Shown: piece by piece, positions 15,578 through 38,243 of the stretch
How positions within the stretch are numbered: position 1 is the stretch's first letter
Layout: each line of letters starts with the position of its first letter
DNA from: Streptomyces halstedii
Lineage (GTDB): Bacteria; Actinomycetota; Actinomycetes; Streptomycetales; Streptomycetaceae
Length of the DNA stretch: 64,000 nt
Assembly: GCA_000720535.1 (NCBI GenBank)
Contig: JOAZ01000017.1
Coordinates: 372,001-436,000 of the forward strand
Reading direction: 5' to 3'
Translations under genes and position numbers: made by a program
The notes under the pieces: model-generated
What the model was told of the DNA's origin: nothing
The model's input: the letters and a program-made list of their open reading frames with translations, nothing else
The model's database searches: none

Positions 15578-15790
15578 GCCGTTCCCTCCCCGTGTCGTCC
15601 TCTGCACCGCGAACCCGGTGGGCCGTGTCCAAGAAGCAGCTCTGCGCAGAGTGTGCACCACGTCCCTGACAATCCACCCTCCACTTGCGGCCTTTCCTGC
15701 CGTGTGCATGGCCAACTGTGAACAGGCCGTGACCTCCCGGTCCGTACCACCCGCCCGCCCGCCGTCCGGCCCGCGCCTCCCGGGCGGCCG

Positions 15791-16684
15791 TCAGCCGCCC
15801 GGCAGGGGGCGGGCCTGGCGGGGGTCGGTCAGCGGCCCGAGCAGGTCGCCGTGCCGCTCCAGCCGCGCGGCCATGTCACCGGCGAGGAAGTCCAGCCCGG
15901 CGGGGTCCTCGCAGGCCCCGATCTCGTCCCAGGTGACGGGGGCGGACACGGTGGGACGGTCCTTGGCCCGCAGGGTGTACGGGGCGGCGGTCGTCTTGGC
16001 CGCGGCGTTCTGGCTGAAGTCCACGAACACCTTCCCCGGGCGCAGCGCACGCGTCATCCGGTGCACCACCAGATCGGGGAGCGCCTTCTGCGCCTCGACC
16101 GCCAGCGACCTGGCGTAGGCCGTCACGTCCTCGGAAGGGGCGGGTTCCAGGGGGACGAGCAGGTGCAGGCCCTTCGAGCCGGAGGTCTTCCCGTAGGCGG
16201 ACAGGCCGTCGGCCGCCAGGCGCTCCCGCAGCCAGAGGGCCACCGCGCAGCACTCGACGATGCTCGCGGGCGCCCCGGGGTCCAGGTCGAAGACCATCCG
16301 GTCCGCGACCGCCGGAGTCTGCCGCCGCCACTGATGGGTGTGGAACTCCACCACCAGATTGGCCGCCCACATCAGCGCGGGCAGATCCTGGACGAGCACC
16401 TGGCGGGCGTCCGGGTCGTCGCTGCGGGGCACCGGCGTGGTACGCACCCAGTCGGGTGTACCGGGCGGCGGGTTCTTGGTGAAGAAGCGCAGCCCCCGCG
16501 GTCCGTCCGGATAGCGCAGGAAGGACAGCGCCCGGTCGTGCAGATGGGCGAGCAGCGCGTCCGCCGCGGTGGCCGCGTAGTAGTGCAGCACCTCGCCCTT
16601 GGTGGTCCCGGTGGCCGGATACAGCACCTTGTCGAGATTGCTGAGCGCCAGGCGCCGCCCCTCCACCTCTGTGATCGGCGTCAT
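15791..16684 (-). CDS. ligD: LigD-type NHEJ polymerase/primase, 297 aa
   Basis: Stand-alone polymerase domain of bacterial LigD (archaeo-eukaryotic primase fold). Metal ligands D133 and D135 lie in VFDLDPG and D222 in KVFVDFSQN. KTSGSKGLHLLVPL is the nucleotide-binding signature. It fills gaps at double-strand breaks, preferring ribonucleotides, during non-homologous end joining. The ligase and phosphoesterase domains of full LigD are absent; in Streptomyces these are often separate genes elsewhere. ATG at 16684. It is divergent from the Ku gene across a 69-base gap, supporting a shared DNA-repair role. Confidence 0.92.
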   Translation of the reverse strand: MTPITEVEGRRLALSNLDKVLYPATGTTKGEVLHYYAATAADALLAHLHDRALSFLRYPDGPRGLRFFTKNPPPGTPDWVRTTPVPRSDDPDARQVLVQDLPALMWAANLVVEFHTHQWRRQTPAVADRMVFDLDPGAPASIVECCAVALWLRERLAADGLSAYGKTSGSKGLHLLVPLEPAPSEDVTAYARSLAVEAQKALPDLVVHRMTRALRPGKVFVDFSQNAAAKTTAAPYTLRAKDRPTVSAPVTWDEIGACEDPAGLDFLAGDMAARLERHGDLLGPLTDPRQARPLPGG

Positions 16685-16753: not shown

Positions 16754-18004
16754 GTGAGGTCCATCTGGAACGGCGCCATCTCCTTCGGACTGGTCAGCAT
16801 TCCCGTCAAGCTGATGAACGCCACGGAGAACCACTCGATCTCCTTCCGGCAGATCCACCTCGCCGACGGTGGCCGGATCCGCTACCGCAAGGTGTGCGAA
16901 CTGGACGAGCGGGAGGTGAGCGGCGCCGAGACCGGCAAGGGCTACCAGGACCCCGACGGCACGGTCGTCCCCATCACCGACGAGGACCTCGCCTCGCTGC
17001 CGCTGCCCACCGCCAAGACGATCGAGATCGAGGGCTTCGTGCCCGCCTCCGCCGTCGACCCGCTCCAACTGGACTCGGCGTACTACCTCGCGGCCAACGG
17101 TGTACCCGCCGGCAAACCGTACGCGCTGCTGCGGGAGGCACTGCGGCGGAGCGAGAAGGTCGCCGTCGCCAAGTACGCCCTGCGCGGCCGGGAACGGCTC
17201 GGGATGCTCCGTGTGGTGGACGACGTGATCGCCCTGCACGGCCTGCTGTGGCCGGACGAGATCCGCGGCCCGGAGGGGGTCGCCCCGGAGACGGACGTCC
17301 GGATCCGGGACGCCGAACTGGACCTGGCGGACGCCCTGATGAACACCCTGGGCGAGGCCGACCTGGACACCCTCCACGACGACTACCGCGAGGCGGTCGA
17401 GGAGCTCGTCGCGGCGAAGGCGGCGGGGGAGCCGGTGGAACCGGAGGGCGAGGAGGAGCCCGGCGGGGGCGAGGTCATCGACCTCATGGCGGCGCTGGAG
17501 AACAGCGTGCGGGCGGCGAAGGGGTCCCCAAGGCAGGACGACGGGGAGGTGGCGGACGTCCACCCCATCGAGTCCGGCAGGGCGGCGTCGAAGCGGGGCG
17601 GGGGTGGTGGCGGTACGGAGAAGGCCGGGGGAGCGGCGGCCGAGGGGCGGGGCTCCAAGGCGCGGGGCGCCAAGGGGGCGGGGCCGGAGAGGAAGGCGTC
17701 CGACGAGGCCCGGGAACCGGCCGCGAAGAAGAAGGCGGCGGCGAAGAAGTCCTCCACCGACACGACCACCGCGAAGAAGTCCCCGGCCAAGAAATCGCCG
17801 GCCAAGAAGTCGTCGTCCACGAAGTCCGCGGCCAAGAAGTCGTCGGCCGGGAAAGCCTCCGCCGGGAAGTCCGCCGCGAGCGAGTCCTCGGCGAAGAAGA
17901 AGACGGCGGCGAAGAAGACGGCGGCGAAGAAGTCGTCCTCGGGTACCCGCCGCGACGCGTCGGGGACGTCCTCCCGGCCCGCCCGCACACGCACCTCGGC
18001 CTGA
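16754..18004 (+). CDS. ku: Ku DNA end-binding protein with long Lys/Ala tail, 416 aa
   Basis: GTG start at 16754 behind GAGGAG. The core (MRSIWNGAISFGLVSIPVKLMNATE through about residue 260) is the bacterial Ku bridge domain that encircles DNA ends as a homodimer and recruits LigD. The C-terminal 150 residues form a low-complexity basic tail of AKKS/PAKKS units, similar to histone H1, much longer than in minimal Ku proteins. Such tails aid DNA binding and threading in actinomycete Ku (family knowledge). It is divergent from the LigD-type polymerase. The tail-coding DNA is a degenerate GCGAAGAAG-type repeat and could vary in length. Confidence 0.95.
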   Translation: MRSIWNGAISFGLVSIPVKLMNATENHSISFRQIHLADGGRIRYRKVCELDEREVSGAETGKGYQDPDGTVVPITDEDLASLPLPTAKTIEIEGFVPASAVDPLQLDSAYYLAANGVPAGKPYALLREALRRSEKVAVAKYALRGRERLGMLRVVDDVIALHGLLWPDEIRGPEGVAPETDVRIRDAELDLADALMNTLGEADLDTLHDDYREAVEELVAAKAAGEPVEPEGEEEPGGGEVIDLMAALENSVRAAKGSPRQDDGEVADVHPIESGRAASKRGGGGGGTEKAGGAAAEGRGSKARGAKGAGPERKASDEAREPAAKKKAAAKKSSTDTTTAKKSPAKKSPAKKSSSTKSAAKKSSAGKASAGKSAASESSAKKKTAAKKTAAKKSSSGTRRDASGTSSRPARTRTSA

Positions 18005-27307: not shown

Positions 27308-27546
27308 GCAACGCCGTTCCGACCGTGGGCGGCGGCACGGCGGGCTCGGCCCTGGCCTACCGAGGCCGTCCCCCGTGTGCGGACCGACCCCCGGGGTGCG
27401 GGCCACCAGGGGGCTACCCCCACCCTGCCCAGGCGCATCAGGAACACCCCTGATCGGCACGGTAGCCGGATGCCCTCGGAGCCGCGTCCGGCGAAGGATG
27501 GTGCTTGTCCGCATCCGCTCGCACCATCAGCTCCCAGGGATCACTC

Positions 27547-28491
27547 ATGGCACGCTTTCACGCTCCTGGCCACCGCGCGCACCGCGCCCACCGCGCACTG
27601 GCGGCCGTCGCCCTGCTGGCCGTTTCCGCCGGTTTCGTCACGGCCTGCGGCGACGAGGGATCCGCGCACCGGGACCCGGCGCCGTCGGTTTCCGCCCCGG
27701 CGGTCCCGGGGGCGGACAAGACGGCCGAGCCGAAGCCCCACATGATCGACAACGACGGTCACCGCCTCGCGTTCCACGTCACCAAGGGGCACGGCCCGGC
27801 CATCGTCCTGGACGCGGGCGGCGGCGAGGACTCGTCCTACTGGAAGGACATCGTTCCCGAGCTGCACGCGACCACCGGGGCCACGATCATCACGTATGAC
27901 CGGCCAGGTCTCGGCAAGAGCGAAGCGGTCCCCGGAGCGTGGGACGTGCGGAGCGCCGTCAGCGACCTGAGGACGGGACTCCAGAAGCTGGGCGTGACCA
28001 AGGACGTGGTCCTGGTGTCCCACTCGCAGGCCGGTGAGATCGCGACCTACTTCACGAAGGAGTACCCGGAACTGGTGTCCGGCTCGGTCCTCGTCGACGC
28101 CAGCCTGCCCCCGCTGTACACGGACGAGGAGACAGCCCGTCTCGTCGCCGCCAACCAGCCGGCCGTGGACGCCGCGAAGAAGGACCCCTCGCAGCCGCGG
28201 AACAGCCAGCTGATCTCCGTGGCGGAGAACTACGCCCCGATGCACAAGGCCTATCACGAGGTTTCCTGGCCCGACGCCGTCCCGGCCACAGTCATCGTGT
28301 CGGAGAAGACCCCGTTCGACGGATCGCCCGAGGACGCCCAGCTCTGGCGCGATGCCGCCGCCTCGTTCGTCGCGCAGGGGCCGGCGAACCGGACACTCGT
28401 CACCGCCAAAGGCAGCTCGCACGACATCCCGAAGGACCGGCCCGCCCTCGTGATCGAGGAGATCGGGAAGATGGCGGGCGCGCGGGGCTGA
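27547..28491 (+). CDS. Lipoprotein alpha/beta-hydrolase, 314 aa
   Basis: ATG at 27547 behind AGGGATC; upstream in-frame codons lack a ribosome site. A His/Arg-rich n-region and hydrophobic core end in VTAC (C34), so the protein is probably a lipoprotein outside the membrane. The hydrolase fold shows DAGGGEDSSYW (oxyanion loop), YDRPGLGKSE, the nucleophile Ser in SHSQAG and the His in SSHDIPKD. The nucleophile elbow SHSQA is slightly unusual (GxSxG becomes SxSxA/G). The substrate is unknown. Confidence 0.85.
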   Translation: MARFHAPGHRAHRAHRALAAVALLAVSAGFVTACGDEGSAHRDPAPSVSAPAVPGADKTAEPKPHMIDNDGHRLAFHVTKGHGPAIVLDAGGGEDSSYWKDIVPELHATTGATIITYDRPGLGKSEAVPGAWDVRSAVSDLRTGLQKLGVTKDVVLVSHSQAGEIATYFTKEYPELVSGSVLVDASLPPLYTDEETARLVAANQPAVDAAKKDPSQPRNSQLISVAENYAPMHKAYHEVSWPDAVPATVIVSEKTPFDGSPEDAQLWRDAAASFVAQGPANRTLVTAKGSSHDIPKDRPALVIEEIGKMAGARG

Positions 28492-28685: not shown

Positions 28686-31600
28686 TCAGAGCCGCTCGGT
28701 GAGCCAGGTGTGCACCGCGAGGGCGGTGGTGCGGGAATGCTCCTCCAGTACGGTGAAGTGGTCGCCGGGCACGGTCACTTCGGAGTGCGGAAGACTCCAG
28801 GGCTCGGCCGCCTCGATGCCCGGCAGAGGGTCTCTGGCCCGTACGAAGAGGGTGGGGGCCGCCAGAGGTGTCGGTTTCCAGCCGTCGTAGAGCTCCAGGT
28901 AGCCGGCCATCGCCGTGAGCCGGTCGATCTCGGCCGAGGCGAACTGCGCGGAGTGGTCCAGCATCCCGGCCGTCATCGCCGAGAGCGCGGGCCCGTCGCC
29001 GCCGTTGCCACCGCCCAGGCCGCCGCTCTCGCCGGGGAAGGTGTCGATCAGGACGACGGCGGACGGAGCCGGCCCCGTGCCCTCCAGGTGCTCGGCGACC
29101 GCGTGTGCCACCCATCCGCCGGCCGAGCGCCCCAGCAGGACGAACGCCTCGTCGCCCGCGCAGGCGCGTACGGCCGCCGCCTGCGCCGCCACGAAGGCGT
29201 CCAGGGTGGCGGGCAGCGACTCGCGCGGCAGGAACCCGGGGTTCGGCAGCACCGAGACGGGCCGCCGGCCCTGGAGGGCCGGCCCGAAGCGGGTGTACTC
29301 GTGCGGCCCCGACAGCGCGCTGAGGGCGGGGAAGCAGAGCAGGCGGGCGCCGGAGCCTCCCTCCGCGACGGTGACGGGCGGGGGCGGAGCACCGAGGGTG
29401 CCGGCGCTCTCGAACACGTCACGGAAGCGGGCGGCGATCGTCAGCAGGGCCATCCCGTCCCACGCCCTGCCCCGGGCGCACGCCGTACGGAACAGCGCGG
29501 ACAGGGAGTCGGCGGGCGCGCCCTGAGGGGACGGAGCCCCGTCCGGGGCACCACCCGGCACCCGGGACGCGAGCCCGCTCGCGGCGGTGCCTTCCGGCAC
29601 CGGGGCGTCGGGTGCCTCAGGGGCGACGGGTTCGCCGGGCGCGGCCTGGGACCAGCGTTCCTCCAGATGGGCGGCGACCGCACGCGGTGTCGGGTAGTCG
29701 AACAGAAGGGTGGCCGGCAAGGCGAGCCCCGTCACCGCCGCGAGCCGGTTGCGCAACTCGACGGCGGCCAGCGAGTCGAGCCCCAGTTCCGCCAGTGCGC
29801 GGTCCGCGTCGATCACGGGGCCCTCCGGGCTGTGGCCGAGCGCCAGGCCGGCTTCCGCCAGGACCTCCGACAGGAGCAGCGCGCCGCGCGCGGGCGCGGG
29901 GGCGGCGGCGAGCCGGCGTCCCAGCGAGCCGCCCCCGGCACCGGACCGCGTGAGCGCCGTGGAGGCTCTCCGGACCGGGCCCCGGCCCGGCACACGGGAG
30001 AGCGGTGCCCCGGGCGTGCCGGCCGCCGCCGGGTCCAGCCGGGCCGCCACCACGACCGCGTCCTGACCTTCGACGGCGGCGTCGAAGAGCGCGAGCCCCT
30101 CCTCGGTGCGCAGCGGGACGAATCCGGAACGGGCCATCCGGCGCAGGTCCGCCTCGCGCAGCGTGGCCGTCATCCCGCCGCTCTGCTGCCACGGCCCCCA
30201 GGCGATCGAGGTGCCCGGCAGTCCGAGGGCCCGGCGGTGCTGTGCCAGGGCGTCCAGGAACGCGTTCGCCGCCGCGTAGTTGCCCTGGCCGCCGGAGCCG
30301 AACACCCCGGCCACCGAGGAGAAGAGGGCGAACACCGCGAGGTCGCTGTCCCGGGTCAACTCGTGCAGGGCGAGGGCCGCGTCCGCCTTCGGCCGCAGGA
30401 CACGGGCCAGGCGCTCCGGCGTCAGCGCCGGGATCACCCCGTCGTCCAGGACACCCGCGGTGTGCACCACGCCGGTCAGCGGATGCGCCGGCGGTACGTC
30501 CGCGAGCAGGGCGGCGAGCGCCGTACGGTCGGCGACGTCGCAGGCCGCCACCGTGACCTCCGCCCCCAACTCCGCCAGCTCCGCGCACAGTTCGGCGCTG
30601 CCGGGCGCATCCGCCCCGCGCCGCCCCACGAGCAGCAGATGACGTACCCCGTGGGTGGCCACCAGGTGGCGGGCGAACGCCGTGCCCAGGGAGCCGGAGC
30701 CCCCGGTGACCAGGACGGTGCCGTCGGGGCGGAGCCGCCGGGGCGCGTCCTCGTCCGCCCCTGCCGCCGATTGCGGGCGGGAGGCCCGGACGAGCCCCGG
30801 TGCGTACGCGACACCGTGCCGCACCACCGTCTGCGGCTCGGCACTCGCCAGCGCCCGGACCAACGCCTCTGCGGACGTGGGGTGTTCGTCCACGTCGATC
30901 AGTGTGAAGCGGCCCGGGTTCTCGGTCTGCGCCGAACGCAGAAGCCCCCATACCGGCGCGTGCGCGAGCACGGCGTCGGCCGTGGCGCCGCTGGCCCCCG
31001 TCGTCGCACCCGTTCCGGTCTCCTTGGCGACGGCCCCCGAAGTGACGACGGCCAGGCGTGAGTTGGCGAGTCGCTCCTCGGCGAGCCAGTCCTGTACGAG
31101 CCGCAGTGCCCACGCGGCCGCGCGGTGCGCGGCCGCGCGGTGCGCGGCCGACGCGCGGTCCGTTCCGCCGGCCGTGGTGAGGGGAGGGCAGGCGACGACG
31201 ACGGCCGGTGCGTCGGCACCCGCCGAGGCCGCGTCCGCGTACACCGTGGGCCCGATGCCCGACCGCGCGAGCGCGTCGTACGGCCAGGGCCCTGGCTCGC
31301 CCAGGAACCCGTACCGAGGCGGTTCCGCCCGCGCCGGAGCGGGCGGATCCAGGAGGCGTACCCAGTCCGGGCGGAACAGGAGGTCGCCGTGCGCGCGCCC
31401 GCCCAACCCCTCGCGGGGGAGCGGACGCAGGACCAGCGAGCGCACCGTGGCCACGGGGGACCCTGAACCGTCGGTCAGCTCCAGCCGGGCCGTGTTCCCC
31501 TCCGCCGGTGACACCCGCACCCGCACCGCGCGGGCGCCGGAGGCGTGCAGCCGCACGCCGCTCCAGGCGAACGGGAGCGACAGCACCGTGCCACCGCCGT

Positions 31601-34600
31601 CCGGAGTGTCCTGAGCCCGCTCGGACGGACGAGGTTCCTGGGATTCCTGACTGAGCGTCAGTGCGTGCAGTGCCGCGTCCAGCAGGGCCGGATGCAGGGT
31701 GAACCGCCCCGCGTCACCGTGCTCCTCCTCCGGGAGTTCCACCTCGGCGAGGACGTCGGCGCCCAGGCGCCAGGCCGCGCGCAGCCCCTGGAAGGCCGGA
31801 CCGTAGCGGAGCCCGCCACGCGCCAGCCTGTCGTAGAGGCCGGTCCCCGGTCCGGAACCCAGCGGCAGCGGGGCAGCGCCCGTGGGAGGCCAGGGGGCGG
31901 GCGCCGCCCCGGAATCCGGCGGCTCCGGAAGCGCGTGGCCGGAGAGGGCCAGCACCCCAGAGGCGCGGAGGTCCCAGGGCCCCTCGCACCCGGGCGTGTG
32001 CGTCCGCGCGTGGAACACCACGGCCCGCCGCCCGTCCGCGTCCGCCCCCGCCACCTTCACCTGGAGCTCGACCGTCTCGTCGGCGGCCAGTGACAGCGGT
32101 GCCGTCAGGGTCAGCTCCTCCAGTACGGAGGCTCCCACCCGGTCCCCGGCGTGGATCGCCATGTCCACAAAGGCGGTCGCCGGCAGGAGCACCGTGTCCA
32201 GCACCGCGTGGTCGGCCAGCCAGGGCTGGTCCCGCAGCGAGATCCGGCCGCTCAGCAGCAGGCCGTCGTCGTCCGCCGTCGAGGTCGCCGACGAGAGGAA
32301 CGGGTGCGGTGAGGCGTCCTGTTCCGGCGCGGCCCCCGGCCGGTCGGCCTCCAGCCAGTACCGCTCACGCTGGAAGGCGTACGTCGGCAGCGCCGTACGC
32401 CGCGCCCCGCGCCCGGCGAAGACCGCGTGCCAGTCGACCGGGACCCCATGGGCGTGGAGCGCGGCGACGGCGGCGAGCAGTGCTTCGGCCTCCGGTCGCG
32501 GGCCACGCAGGGTCGGGACGAACGAGGGCGCGGGCACCAGGCCGCCCGGGGCCGGGTCCGTGCTCCCGTCCGTGTACCGGCTCTCGGTCCCGTCCGTGGC
32601 CGCGTCCCCGGCCACGGACGCGGGCGGCGGGCCGCAGAGGTGGTCGCGGGCCAGACCGGTGAGCACACTGTCCGGGCCGAGCTCCACGAAGTGTGCCGCG
32701 CCCCGCTCCCGCAGACGGCTCACCGAGTCGGTGAACCGGACCGGCCGGCGTACGTGCTCCACCCAGTACCGGGACGAGCGGACCTCCTCCACGGCGGCGG
32801 GCAGGTCAGCCACCGCGCCGACGAGGGGAATCTCCGGCCGGGAGTAGGTGATCTCCCGTGCGACCAGGTCGAAGGCGTCGAGCATGGGGTCCATGCGCGC
32901 CGAGTGGAACGCATGGCTCACCCGCAGCCGGGTGGCCTCACGTCCCTGCGCGCGCCAGTGTGCGACGGCATCCAGCACGGCGGGTTCGTCCCCGGCGAGG
33001 ACGACCACGGAGCGGCCGTTCACAGCCGCGATCTCCAGCCCCCGGCCCCGGCCCGCCCCGTCCGCCAGGAACGCGGCGACCTCGTCCTCGCCGGCGCGTA
33101 CGTAGGCCATCGCCCCACCGGCGGGCAGCGCGTCCATCAGACGGCCCCGCGCCGCCACCAGGGTGCAGGCGTCCGCGAGGGACAGCACCCCGGCCACATG
33201 CGCCGCCGCCAGCTCACCGGCCGAGTGCCCGGCCACCATGTCGGGGCGTACACCCCAGGACTCCAGCAGCCGGAACAGCGAGACCTCCAGCGCGAAGAGG
33301 GCCGGCTGAGCGAACCGCGTCGTGTGCAGGAGCCCGTCCGCTCCATGACCCCCGGCGCCCTCGTCGGCCCGGCCCGCTTCGGCCCGGCCGTCCGCCTCGT
33401 CCCCGTCGGCGAACACCACGTCCCGCAGCGGCTTCGGCAGCAGCGGGTCCAGCAGGGCGCAGACGGCGTCGAAGGAGCGGGCGTAGACGGGCTGGGTCTC
33501 GTACAACTGGCGGCCCATACCGCTGCGTTGGCTGCCCTGTCCGGTGAACATGAAGACGACCGCGCCCGTCGGGCGGGGGCCGCTCGTGCTCAGACCCGGC
33601 CGGTACAGGCCCTCGGCCACCGCGTCGAGGGAGGCGAGCAGTTCGCGGCGGTCACCGGCCACCACCACCGCGCGGTGTTCGAAGTGGGCGCGGCTCGTGG
33701 CCAGGGAGTATCCGAGGTCCAGCAGGTCCGTCCCGGGGCGGGCGTCCACGTGGGCGCGCAGGCGCCGCGCCTGCGCCCGCAGTCCCGCGGCGCTCCTCGC
33801 CGACACCGGGAACGGCACGGCCGCCACCCGGGCGGCCGGGGATCCGCTCTCCGGGCCGCGCGGATCACCCGGCTCCTCCACCGGCGCCTGCTCGATGACC
33901 ACATGCGCGTTCGTCCCGCTGATCCCGAAGGACGACACCCCCGCCCGCCGGGGCCGTCCGGTCCGGGGCCACGGCACCGGCCGGGTCAGCAGCGACACCG
34001 CGCCCGACGACCAGTCCACGCCGGGGTTCGCCTCCTCGGCGTGCAGCGTGCGCGGCAGTACCCCGTGCGCCATCGCCTGGATCATCTTCATCACCCCGGC
34101 CATACCCGCCGCGGCCTGCGTGTGCCCGACGTTCGACTTGACCGAGCCCAGCCAGAGAGGATGCTCCCGCGCGCCGGCCCGGCCGTAGGCCTCCAGGAAC
34201 GCCTCCGCCTCGATGACGTCGCCGAGCCGGGTGCCCGTACCGTGTGCCTCCACCGCGTCGATCTCGGCGGGCACCAGCCGCGCGTCGGCCAAGGCCTGGC
34301 GGATCACCCGCCGTTGCGCCGGTCCGTGCGGCGCGGTCAGGCCGTTGCTCGCGCCGTCCTGGTTCACGGCGGAGCCGCGTACCACGGCCAGCACCTCGTA
34401 TCCGGCCCGCCGCGCCTCCGACAGCCGTGTCAGCAGCAGCATGCCCGCGCCCTCGGCCCACCCGGTGCCGTCCGCCGACGCGCCGAACGCCTTGCAGCGG
34501 CCGTCGGGCGCCAGCGCGCGCTGCCTGCTGAACTCGACGAACGAGCGGGGCGCCGACATGACGGTGACGCCCCCGGCCAGCGCCAGCGAGCACTCGCCCC

Positions 34601-37145
34601 CGCGCAGGGCCTGGGCCGCCAGGTGCAGGGCCACCAGGGACGACGAGCACGCCGTGTCCACCGTCACCGCCGGTCCCTCCAGGCCCAGGGTGTAGGCGAT
34701 ACGGCCGGAGGCGACGCTGCCCGCGTTACCGATGCCGAGGTAGCCCTCCACCCGCTCCGGTGTGCGGACGAGACGGCCGGCGTAGTCGCTGTACATGAGC
34801 CCGGCGTACACACCGGTGGGAGTGGAACGCACCGTGCCGGGATCGATGCCCGCGTGCTCGAAGGCCTCCCAGGCGACTTCGAGCAGCAGCCGGTGCTGCG
34901 GGTCCATGGCCGTCGCCTCACGGGGCGAGATCCCGAAGAAGGCGGGGTCGAAGCGGTCCACACCGGTCAGGAAGCCGCCGTCGCGTACGTAGGTACGGCC
35001 GGCCCGCCCGGGGTCCGGGTCGTACAGCCCGTCCACGTCCCACCCCCGGTCGGCCGGGAAGGGCGTGATGGCGTCGACGCCCTCGTCGACCAGCCGCCAC
35101 AGGTCCTCGGGGGACTCCACGCCGCCGGGAAAACGGCAGGCCATGCCGATGACGACCACGGGATCGCCGGCCGGGCCGTCCCCCTCCTGACGTGTGGGCC
35201 GGGCACGCGCCGTGCCGCCGGTGAGCCGGGCCCGGAGGTGCCCGGCCATCTCCGTCGTGGTGGGGAAGTCGAAGGGCGCGGCCTCGGACAGCGGGACACC
35301 GGTCGCCGCGGACAGACGGTCGCGCAGCACCATGGACGTCAACGAGTCCAGGCCCAGGTCGCGGAACGCGGTGCCCGCCCCCACCTCGTCCACGGCGCAG
35401 CCGAGCACGGCGGCGACCTCGGCCCGCACCAGGTCCGTCAGATCCGCCGTTCCCGTTCCCGTTTCGGACTTCGCGGCCGTGCCGGTGTCCGTCCCCGCCG
35501 GGGAGAGGGCTTCGGCCCGCAGGAGCCGGGCGGGCAGGCCCGCGAGCCGGTACCGCCTGGCCTTTCCCGAGGCGGTACGCGGGATGGCGTCCACCCCGTA
35601 GAAGGCCGCGGGCACCTTGAACGGCGACAACCGCTCCCGGCAGGCGGCCAGGACCGCCCTCCGGTCGAGGGCACCGGCCCGCTCCGGGACCAGATAGGCG
35701 ACCGGAACCTCACCGAGTACGTCGTCCGGCCGCCCGGCCACGGCGGCGTCCTTGATCCCCGGCAGCGTCAGCAGCACCGCCTCCACCTCGGAGGGATGGA
35801 TGTTCTCCCCGGCCCGGACGATCAGCTCACTGACCCGGCCGGTGAGGGTGAGCTGACCGTCGGTACCGATCCGGGCCAGGTCGCCGGTGCGGTACCAGCC
35901 GTCGCGCAGGACCTCGGCGGTGTCGTCGGGCCGACCGTGGTACCCGGCCATGACACCGGGCCCGGAGACCCACAACTCACCCTCTGCCGCAGCCTCTTCG
36001 CCGTCTCCGATCCGCACTCGGGTGCCCGGCAGCACACGGCCGCAGGAGCCGGCCGCCCGGTCGGTGCCCGGTGCCGTCATCGTGACGGGCCCCGCCTCGG
36101 TGCTGCCGTAGTGGTCGAGGAACGGAACCCCGCAGGTCTCTTCGAAGGCCCGCCGGAACGCGGGGGCGGCGGCCGCGCCCCCACTGACGCAGCCGCGCAG
36201 CGCGGGCGCCCGCAGCCCGTCGGCGCCCACCGCGTCGAGAAGCGTGCCGTATGTCGTCGGCACACCGGCCAGCAGCGTGAACGGTTCGTCGGCCCGGCGC
36301 AGTTGCTCCAGCACGTCCCCCACGGAGAAGCGCGGCAGGATCATCGCGGACGCTCCGGTCGCGGTCACCCCGAGGACGCACAGGACCTGCCCCATGGCGT
36401 GATGGAGGGGGAGCGGCCACAACAGGCGGTCGTCGGCCGAGAGACCGAGGACGGCGACGAAACCGGACGCCACCGACGACAGGCGGTTGCGCTGGGTGGA
36501 CAGCACGCCCTTGGGGAGGCCGGTCGACCCGGAGGTGTAGAGCAGCCAGGCCACCTCGTCGAGCCCGAGGTCGTCCGGAGCGGGAACGGGGGGTTCGGAG
36601 GCGGCCATGTCCTCGTACCAGCACGCGTCCGCCGGGCCCACGGGGTCCGCCGCGCCCTTCGCCGGGGCCCCGCCCGGCGTACGGGTGTCCGGCGCCCCGC
36701 CGTCCGGCCTTCCGGCGTCATCCCGTGTCCCGGCGTCCCGGACGAGCACCACCCTCGGCCGGGGGCGATCCGACGGCAACGCCGGTAACCGGCGCAGCGA
36801 GGCCCGGTCGGTGACGAGGAGCCGGGCGCCGCTGTCGTCCAGCATGTGCGCCAGCTCGGCCGTGCTGCTCCGCGGATCCATCGGCACGCCGACCGCCCCC
36901 GCCCTGGCGACGGCGAGGACGCTCTCGACGGCCTCCACCCGGTTGCCGAGGAGGATCGCCGCCCGCTCGCCGTGCCGCAGTCCGAGGCCGGCGAAATGCC
37001 CCGCCAGCCGTCCGGTGCGCACCTCCAGCTCCGCGTAGGTCACACGGCGGCGCTCGTCCTGGAAAGCGGTCTTGGTACCGAGGCGCCGGGCATGCTCCCG
37101 GAGCAGTTCCGGCAGAGGGCGGAGGTCGGCCGTACGCGATGTCAC
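28686..37145 (-). CDS. Type I polyketide synthase, CoA ligase-ACP-KS-AT-DH-KR-ACP-TE, 2819 aa
   Basis: Complete single-module megasynthase with its own starter-loading and release domains. Residues 1-545 form an acyl-CoA/AMP ligase ([38 protein letters not shown]528 in TASGKARR). ACP1 carries S601 in GLDSL. KS (about 663-1085) has C833 in DTACSSS plus EAHGTGT and KSNVGHT. AT (about 1195-1510) has S1308 in GHSAGE and HAFH at 1411-1414, predicting malonyl-CoA. DH (about 1612-1900) has H1646 and D1823, but the HxxxGxxxxP motif reads [12 protein letters not shown] (about 1925-2360) has TGGSGSLG, an LDD motif (B-type) and Y2290. ACP2 has S2458. TE (about 2595-2819) has S2674 in GRSAGG and H2796. 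There is no ER, so one round would give an enoyl acid if the DH works, otherwise a 3-hydroxy acid. GTG start at 37145. No tailoring, regulatory or transport genes are adjacent. Confidence 0.95.
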
Positions 37146-37296: not shown

Positions 37297-37386
37297 ACTC
37301 CGGCGCAGATGACTCCGGCGCAGATGACTCCGGCGCACATGACTCGACGCAATGACTCCTGGCGCACATGAGTCCTGGCGCACATG
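37297..37386. repeat. Six-copy 15-bp tandem repeat (GACTCCGGCGCAGAT) upstream of the PKS
   Basis: Units GACTCCGGCGCAGAT, GACTCCGGCGCACAT, GACTC-GACGCAAT, GACTCCTGGCGCACAT and GAGTCCTGGCGCACAT run from about 37297 to 37386, between the PKS promoter and the tRNA terminator. The first three are nearly identical; later ones carry indels. Regular spacing ahead of a biosynthetic gene could mean a multimeric regulator site, but a simple minisatellite is as likely. Confidence 0.8.
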
Positions 37387-37431
37387 AAAAAGACCCTCCG
37401 CGCAGTGTCTCCACTGGCAAGAGGGTCTTTT
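37387..37431. terminator. Bidirectional terminator downstream of tRNA-Arg
   Basis: AAAAAGACCCTC (37387-37398) pairs with GAGGGTCTTTT (37421-37431); the stem is flanked by A and T runs on both strands, so it works as an intrinsic terminator for the tRNA (minus strand) and also for any plus-strand transcript. This is one of the few canonical U-tract terminators in the window. Confidence 0.9.
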
Positions 37432-37448
37432 CGGCACTTCCCGCGAAG

Positions 37449-37520
37449 TGCCCCCGGCAGGATTCGAACCTGCGCACCCGGCTCCGGAGGCCGATGCTCT
37501 ATCCCCTGAGCTACGGGGGC
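37449..37520 (-). tRNA. tRNA-Arg (anticodon CCG)
   Basis: The minus strand folds as a 72-nt cloverleaf: acceptor GCCCCCG/CGGGGGC, D stem GCTC/GAGC with loop AGGGGATA, anticodon stem TCGGC/GCCGG with loop CTCCGGA (anticodon CCG, reads CGG), variable loop GTGC, T arm GCAGG-TTCGAAT-CCTGC, discriminator A. CCA is not encoded in full (CAC follows). It is followed by a strong terminator. It marks the border between the accessory region and the core block with the ArgRS-like gene. Confidence 0.97.
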
Positions 37521-37787
37521 GATGTCGCCGCTCTCGGCGGCGACGGGTGAAACACTACCAGCTCCCAGGTGGTGCCCGGGAACAGGTTTGTCCGCCAGCG
37601 GATACGGGCGTGCCCCGGGCCCCGCCCCACGTCGGCCCGGCCCTGGGCGCCCGGCCGGCCCGTCACCGGCACGGCACCCGGATCCCGGTGCCCCGCCGGC
37701 CCGCCCGTTCGCGGTCCGAGGCGGTCCTCCCGGGCGGAAGTGGGCAAAAGCCGGACGCGGCGCCTCCGCCCCGCCTACCCTCGAAGG

Positions 37788-38243
37788 GTGTCAGGGGTGT
37801 ACGGCCGCGTGCTCGTTGTCGACGACAACAAGGTCATCCGGCAGCTGATCAAGGTCAATCTCGAACTGGAGGGCTTCGAGGTCGTGACCGCGGCCGACGG
37901 TGTCGAGTGTCTGGATCTCGTGCACCGCATCTGTCCGGATGTGATCACCCTCGATGTGGTGATGCCCCGCCTCGACGGCATACAGACCGCCACCCGGCTG
38001 CGCGCCGATCCGCGGACCAGCGCTCTGCCCGTCGCCGTCGTCAGCGCCTGCACCCCCTTCGAGGTGGACGCCGGAGTGGCCGCCGGGGTCGACGCGTTCC
38101 TGGAGAAGCCGTTCGAGCCGAGCGAGCTGGTGCGGGTCGTCCACCGGCTGATGCGCAAGCAGGGGCCGTCCGCGTGCCCGGAGGGCCCGCCCTCACCGGC
38201 CCGCGGACGCGGCGTGGGAAGGGCCGGGAGCACCGCCGGGTGA
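37788..38243 (+). CDS. Single-domain response regulator, 151 aa
   Basis: GTG at 37788. Receiver domain with acidic pair D12-D13, phosphoacceptor D56 in ITLDVVMP and K107 in LEKPFEP. There is no output domain; the 25-residue tail is Pro/Gly/Arg-rich. TACCCT ends 6 bases before the GTG, so the mRNA is probably leaderless. No kinase is adjacent; such orphan receivers usually act by protein contact. The gene lies just after tRNA-Arg on the opposite strand. Confidence 0.9.
   Translation: MSGVYGRVLVVDDNKVIRQLIKVNLELEGFEVVTAADGVECLDLVHRICPDVITLDVVMPRLDGIQTATRLRADPRTSALPVAVVSACTPFEVDAGVAAGVDAFLEKPFEPSELVRVVHRLMRKQGPSACPEGPPSPARGRGVGRAGSTAG

Follow-up and report, generated by a model that had tools for sequence, protein, structure and literature searches.

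A stretch of 64,000 nucleotides from Streptomyces halstedii (contig JOAZ01000017.1, positions 372,001 to 436,000; 'the window' in what follows) carries an 8.5-kb gene for a type I polyketide synthase (PKS) that encodes its own loading and release domains. We propose, at a little under an even chance, that this gene is a complete pathway to a small diketide acid, made by aryl-type loading, one extension with malonate, reduction and hydrolysis by the thioesterase (TE). One small aryl acid, one malonate round and hydrolysis are proposed because of the order of functions, the acyltransferase (AT), the ketoreductase (KR), and the enzyme's own TE with a structural model of it.

The PKS gene and its domains

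The gene is a single open reading frame (ORF) of 2819 amino acids with a GTG start, spanning window positions 28686-37145 on the minus strand exactly. Its G+C at third codon positions (GC3) and its codon-position G+C pattern are those of a true coding frame, a plausible ribosome site, AGAGGAAG, lies upstream of the start, and its G+C content is 75.7%, against 72-73% on either flank. Pfam domains, all above cut-off, give the order CAL-ACP-KS-AT-DH-(psiKR)KR-ACP-TE, where CAL is a CoA-ligase-like/adenylation loader, ACP an acyl carrier protein, KS the ketosynthase, DH the dehydratase and psiKR the structural half of the KR. The spans in amino acids are AMP-binding 15-403, C-domain 453-528, KS 661-1036, AT 1197-1513, DH 1614-1914, SpnB-type structural Rossmann 1959-2116, KR 2142-2320 and TE 2601-2812. 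PP-binding was matched in two stretches (best 2435-2494), and DLGLDS at 596-601 is the first ACP. The NCBIfam type I PKS model NF045894 also exceeds its cut-off on the protein. The features, all on the minus strand, are as follows.

28686..37145, minus: single-module type I PKS gene, 2819 amino acids (ORF, GC3, Pfam)
35562..37103, minus: CAL, amino acids 15-528 (Pfam, located residues)
36090-36119, minus: CAL pocket motif, 10 residues, with His345 before YGSTE (loader alignment)
35211..35450, minus: first ACP, Ser601 in DLGLDSL (Pfam, located residue)
34038..35165, minus: KS, Cys833/His968/His1008 (Pfam, located residues)
32607..33557, minus: AT, GHSAG and HAFH (Pfam, motifs)
31404..32306, minus: DH, His1646 and Asp1823 kept, HxxxG motif reading HxxxD, with Asp at residue 1650 (Pfam, alignment)
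30798..31271, minus: structural (psi) KR half, SpnB_Rossmann (Pfam)
30186..30722, minus: KR, LDD motif, Tyr2290 (Pfam, located residues)
29664..29843, minus: second ACP, Ser2458 (Pfam, located residue)
28710..29345, minus: type I TE, GRSAGG Ser2674, Asp2701, His2796 (Pfam, located residues, fold model)

Residues were found at their expected places in each functional domain: K528 in CAL, S601 and S2458 in the ACPs, C833, H968 and H1008 in KS, S1308 in AT with HAFH at 1411-1414, H1646 and D1823 in DH, Y2290 in KR (the one of its catalytic residues that was located), and S2674, D2701 and H2796 in TE. We assume the customary catalytic roles for these residues, and we take the AT to be malonyl-type from its HAFH motif and the KR to be B-type from its LDD motif. 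With KS, AT and ACP and their catalytic residues in one chain, the enzyme is a type I cis-AT PKS. Its N-terminal AMP-binding domain with superfamily motifs, as we read them, followed by an ACP, places it among the CAL-loaded PKSs. The single departure noted is in the DH, where HxxxG reads HAVLD (1646-1650) with the catalytic His and Asp kept. This need not mean loss of function, because the same HxxxD occurs in five intact relatives (L026, L078, L080, L083 and L095), all belonging to another single-module clade described below.

The preliminary description of this DNA had placed a CoA ligase-ACP-KS-AT-DH-KR-ACP-TE enzyme at 28686-37145 with all catalytic residues intact but one motif. The ORF and Pfam domains bear it out, as do the residues located, with DH HxxxG as the exception. 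That a free carboxylic acid would be activated and then extended with malonate, as it foresaw, follows from the domains.

A search of PDB sequences with the TE alone gave no match at 0.001, and a fold search was therefore run. The AlphaFold2 model, built with 11 sequences, has a mean predicted local distance difference test (pLDDT) of 81.7 and a predicted template modelling score (pTM) of 0.83, and comes closest to thioesterases of type I PKSs, namely those for juvenimicin, DEBS, tautomycetin and tylosin.

Proposed pathway

The substrate of the CAL would be a small free acid, most likely an aryl one of substituted benzoate type, which this domain would adenylate and load straight onto the first ACP. 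The KS would join this starter with malonate supplied by the AT, the KR would reduce the beta-keto group, the DH may remove water fully, partly or not at all, and the TE would hydrolyse the product to a 3-hydroxy-3-aryl-propionic or cinnamate-type (2-enoyl) acid. Activation of both ACPs would fall to a phosphopantetheinyl transferase from another part of the genome, where the corresponding family, PF01648, has three matches.

The same order of functions, with an aryl acid adenylated, extended once and ketoreduced, holds in the loading module and module 1 of the rifamycin PKS; there, benzoate, ATP, methylmalonyl-CoA and NADPH are reported to give a 3-hydroxy-2-methyl-3-phenylpropanoyl thioester (PMC13254586). 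By this analogy the window PKS is best read as a free-standing equivalent of those two modules, with a thioesterase of its own added. It differs from the rifamycin PKS and others primed with 3-amino-5-hydroxybenzoate (AHBA) in its TE, a His in the loader pocket, and the lack of an AHBA synthase gene, of further modules and of the KR-like stretch that most AHBA loci have between CAL and ACP. Its AT, by the rule assumed above, is malonyl-type, whereas the rifamycin assay used the methylmalonyl extender.

The loader and its substrate

The comparison took in 95 loci whose loaders are related to that of the window, 80 being the best-scoring of a longer scan. By score, the nearest loaders outside the window's own group of nine loci (next section) lie in AHBA-synthase loci in ten of ten cases, and in 14 of the first 15. 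These nearest CAL domains from AHBA loci are 52-55% identical to that of the window, in a comparison that did not include the rifamycin protein itself. The AHBA synthase genes of these loci are 73-100% identical to that of one of them, L034, and eight genes from L033, L034, L041 and L059 fall by Pfam into the aminotransferase, dehydroquinase, dehydroquinate-synthase, ROK and HAD families, which we take to be AHBA genes from what is generally known of ansamycin clusters. Such kinship makes a small aryl acid a more likely substrate than a lipid; the preliminary description had suggested that the enzyme could make a lipid, a signal or a starter unit used elsewhere.

A fatty or otherwise aliphatic starter, with a 3-hydroxy or 2-enoyl lipid as the product, is rather improbable. 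The best single-domain ligase model in NCBIfam is a long-chain fatty acid CoA ligase, scoring well under its cut-off, and the near PDB chains include some named fatty-acyl-CoA synthase alongside feruloyl-CoA synthetase and MenE; against this stand the AHBA loci of the nearest PKS loader relatives and the pocket. As read from aligned motif residues only, the position before YGSTE is His in five of five group members and in none of 91 others in a 96-row loader alignment. The four remaining members carry the same His-YGSTE motif, making nine of nine; in most relatives the position is occupied by Gly, Ala or Ser. A bulkier residue at such a position argues against a long-chain substrate. Because the pocket motif is identical in all nine, the members probably share one starter.

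We judge AHBA itself an unlikely starter, since an AHBA synthase was not found: there is none in the window, the best match in the genome is 35% identical (at least 73% in AHBA loci), and the best in four other carriers of the gene is 48% over 163 residues. AHBA genes other than the synthase were sought in the window only. Judged by the presence of such a synthase nearby or in the genome, the window gene does not appear to be an ansamycin PKS. AHBA loaders form their own clade in the CAL tree (support 100/98), which does not include the window group. A search with PF21168 (chorismatase, 3-hydroxybenzoate synthase type) gave no match, its positive controls being equally silent.

A scattered group of nine Streptomyces loci

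The group consists of the window, L016, L017, L031, L032, L176, L177, L178 and L180, with intact frames in seven; the eight relatives match the window PKS along its full length. L031 is from S. altiplanensis (L179 is the same place) and L032 from S. spiroverticillatus, and L176 sits on a 1.04-Mb linear plasmid, typed as mobilizable, of Streptomyces sp. NBC_01435. Identity to the window PKS by tblastn is 61-70% for the six intact relatives, and in fragments 77-90% for L031 and 62-70% for L180; among L017, L176, L177 and L178, pairwise identity is 82-84%. The phylogeny of KS and CoA-ligase domains called for in the preliminary description gave the five members placed in trees a 100/100 clade of their own, while leaving their nearest neighbour group unsettled in the CAL tree; four of the five were also in the KS and CAL+KS+AT trees described below. 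L176, L177, L178 and one more member were assigned by identity and shared motifs, outside the trees.

A close loader match (E <= 1e-75) was found in 7 of 150 drawn Streptomyces genomes, counting the window's own, and a match above 60% identity in 2 of 60 genomes of the genus and 0 of 39 more distant ones. In G019, a near relative by the gene hom (96%), which lies to the right of the window PKS, the PKS is 5.7 Mb from hom.

About 1 to 10 kb of flank was examined on each side of each group locus. No pathway-type neighbour is shared among the nine loci within these flanks, distant partners not having been searched for. The sole similarity between neighbours at different loci is a 36% match of L032 with L178, regulator-like by eye, and ten flanking genes from six loci belong to unrelated Pfam families or to none. 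A small TNT-domain protein (PF14021) is encoded near the L016 relative (15730-16419 of that locus) and is not common to the other loci. The stand-alone, self-loading and self-releasing character first read from the window alone is thus firmer than at first reading, with nine loci lacking a common partner in the flanks.

Four intact members are under purifying selection: ratios of nonsynonymous to synonymous substitution rates (dN/dS), from our own Nei-Gojobori script, are 0.30-0.38 in their six pairs, and in the three pairs that include the window conservation is highest in the KS and KR. The intact frame and these ratios rule out decay of the window gene.

From the scatter of loci we infer transfer between strains, in which the PKS gene would move among Streptomyces as a single unit needing no dedicated partner genes. 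With more doubt than attaches to the diketide product, we suggest that a single mobile gene holds the whole pathway. Its product would be an aryl-diketide synthase that loads and releases by itself, spreads without partners over chromosomes and a linear plasmid, and gives a cinnamate-type or 3-aryl-3-hydroxypropionic acid. The enzyme might instead pass its product to another pathway, or take its starter from a cluster elsewhere in the genome, which does hold other PKS loci. We consider this very improbable for an enzyme with its own loader and TE, found at nine loci in unrelated surroundings.

The wider family

The architecture CAL-ACP-KS-AT-DH-KR-ACP-TE occurs in at least 23 of the 95 loci, three in the window group and 20 outside, a domain that was hit twice being taken as one; L019 and L069 do not differ over the stretch compared, and the domain step missed TEs visible by alignment in some loci, e.g. 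L051 and L060. The compact layout is thus commoner than was implied at first, as at least 20 loci outside the group have the identical architecture.

These 20 loci, from Streptomyces, Lentzea, Kribbella and others, all fall in one well-supported main single-module clade (98 in a FastTree KS tree) that does not include the window group; that tree places the KS of the window group, weakly, next to modular KSs from the window's own genome. The clade excludes the window group with support of 100/98 (17 rows, KS) and 100/99 (13 rows, CAL+KS+AT), and the window PKS thus appears to lie outside it. Joining both single-module clades as one was not rejected by approximately unbiased (AU) tests (p 0.199 and 0.408). 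We do not claim an independent origin of the architecture: the clades split in free trees, the AU tests permit one clade, and the best KR relatives lie in the main clade.

No characterised close orthologue, which would have refuted the preliminary description, was found in PDB sequence searches (loader and TE only) or in the literature searched, which also gave no characterised member of the main single-module clade. Literature titles and abstract beginnings named no product for this architecture; they did not cover the iterative-PKS work of Wang et al. 2020, which reportedly describes iterative type I PKSs hidden in Streptomyces and may overlap with the present enzyme class.

In the main clade, some of the synthase genes have a flavin halogenase-type gene nearby. 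A halogenase-type neighbour was seen in 13 of 47 loci compared (two Pfam-confirmed), with neither the window nor the four group relatives in that set among them, and the genome's one strong Trp_halogenase match is on another contig; a halogenated product of the window PKS was set aside on these grounds. Single-module PKSs near such a gene (L023, L026, L042, L049, L060, L078, L080, L083, L102 and L103; gene Pfam-checked for L042 only) possibly make halogenated small polyketides. A separate PKS type, CAL-ACP-KS-AT-ACP, has two halogenase-type genes nearby in L018, L030 and L052 (one Pfam-checked, in L052). In Salinispora (L063, L067, L068) a CAL-ACP-KS-AT-ACP gene has conserved surroundings, with eight shared neighbour families.

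Weighing the diketide proposal

Several points tell against the one-gene diketide pathway proposed above. The pocket His, unlike AHBA loaders, together with the missing AHBA synthase, suggests that the starter is probably not AHBA, and it could be non-aromatic. A common clade of window group and AHBA loaders is neither shown nor rejected in the CAL tree (p 0.527). Nor does the module seem ansamycin-like throughout: the nearest relatives of the CAL are in AHBA loci and those of the KS in AHBA and other multi-module loci, those of the KR are in the main single-module clade, and the TE has its nearest relative in a modular PKS that the window's genome also encodes. Two group members have broken frames, L031 in four pieces and L180 in three, and decay cannot be told from sequencing error there because the assemblies are in hundreds of contigs. 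Finally, all the sequence evidence is compatible with several extension rounds.

Repeated rounds are the main rival to the diketide reading: an iterative single-module PKS with the same loader would extend several times before the TE frees a pyrone or a polyene acid of aryl or alkyl type. The Clostridium clostrienose enzyme, with one KS-AT-DH-KR-ACP module like the window's, is proposed to make a heptaketide, with iteration shown in vitro; as described there, that protein has no loader, first ACP or TE, unlike the window PKS, and its tailoring genes are not all adjoining (PMC5686105). Iterative type I PKSs are also said to be commoner in Streptomyces than first predicted (PMC8622039). We hold iteration unlikely here. 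The KS groups, weakly, with modular KSs of its own genome and near ansamycin-type loci, a slight argument from trees containing no reference iterative KS, and a polyene would need an active DH, whose motif is altered in the window, though HxxxD occurs in other intact relatives.

Chromosomal surroundings

Two further features precede the PKS gene in its reading direction.

37297..37387: 15-bp tandem repeat, about six copies
37448..37520, minus: tRNA-Arg(CCG), bordering the variable region that holds the PKS

Sought as one pattern in the 7.74-Mb genome, with up to three mismatches allowed, two adjoining 15-bp units match nowhere but here; the repeat is a possible operator or drift. The setting first described, between a lipoprotein hydrolase and tRNA-Arg, was confirmed: the left neighbour at 27505-28491 (plus strand) is an alpha/beta hydrolase with a lipobox-like VTAC, and farther left are genes for a DUF488 protein, a TUDOR-domain protein, a lytic polysaccharide monooxygenase (LPMO) and a protein like formylglycine-generating enzyme (FGE). 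To the right lie the tRNA-Arg, a response-regulator gene (37569-38243) and hom.

Among 18 relatives with hom, stretches beside it were taken from 15, of which 13 were about 20 kb long (L161 and L165 were too short). Over these 20 kb, all 13 have the response regulator at this place, followed by its neighbouring gene and hom; the tRNA-Arg was found in 12 (not in L154) and the PKS in none. The synteny comparison proposed at the outset therefore shows a kept backbone without the PKS. The claim that no regulator lies nearby fails to the letter, with the response-regulator gene just past the tRNA, yet stands in substance, because that gene is present in all 13 relatives, none with the PKS there, and so belongs to the backbone.

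The stretch beside the tRNA-Arg varies among the relatives compared, and integration in the genus seems to favour this site. Partial second copies of the tRNA-Arg 3' end (42-52 bp), about 5-16 kb off, occur in L153, L158, L160 and L162, like remnants of integrative elements. Within the 64-kb window there is no exact repeat of the tRNA-Arg of 12 bp or more, and a second copy of its 3' end is absent too, whether the last 42 bp are sought with up to 10 substitutions or the last 20 bp with up to 4. A tRNA-integrated island is not claimed for the PKS, with partial copies in 4 of 13 relatives and none in the window. Elsewhere in the window, at 16754-18004, a Ku protein has a C-terminal stretch weakly like the histone H1-like HC2, below the Pfam cut-off.

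Significance

If the proposal is right, the window PKS would be a natural compact loading-extension-release system, complete in one 8.5-kb gene, and a tractable one for studying in vitro the starter choice of a CAL and the number of rounds made by a free-standing module. It would provide a bacterial polyketide route by which a free aryl acid becomes a cinnamate-type or 3-aryl-3-hydroxypropionic acid, and an example of a secondary-metabolite pathway travelling among Streptomyces as a single gene, with no cluster.

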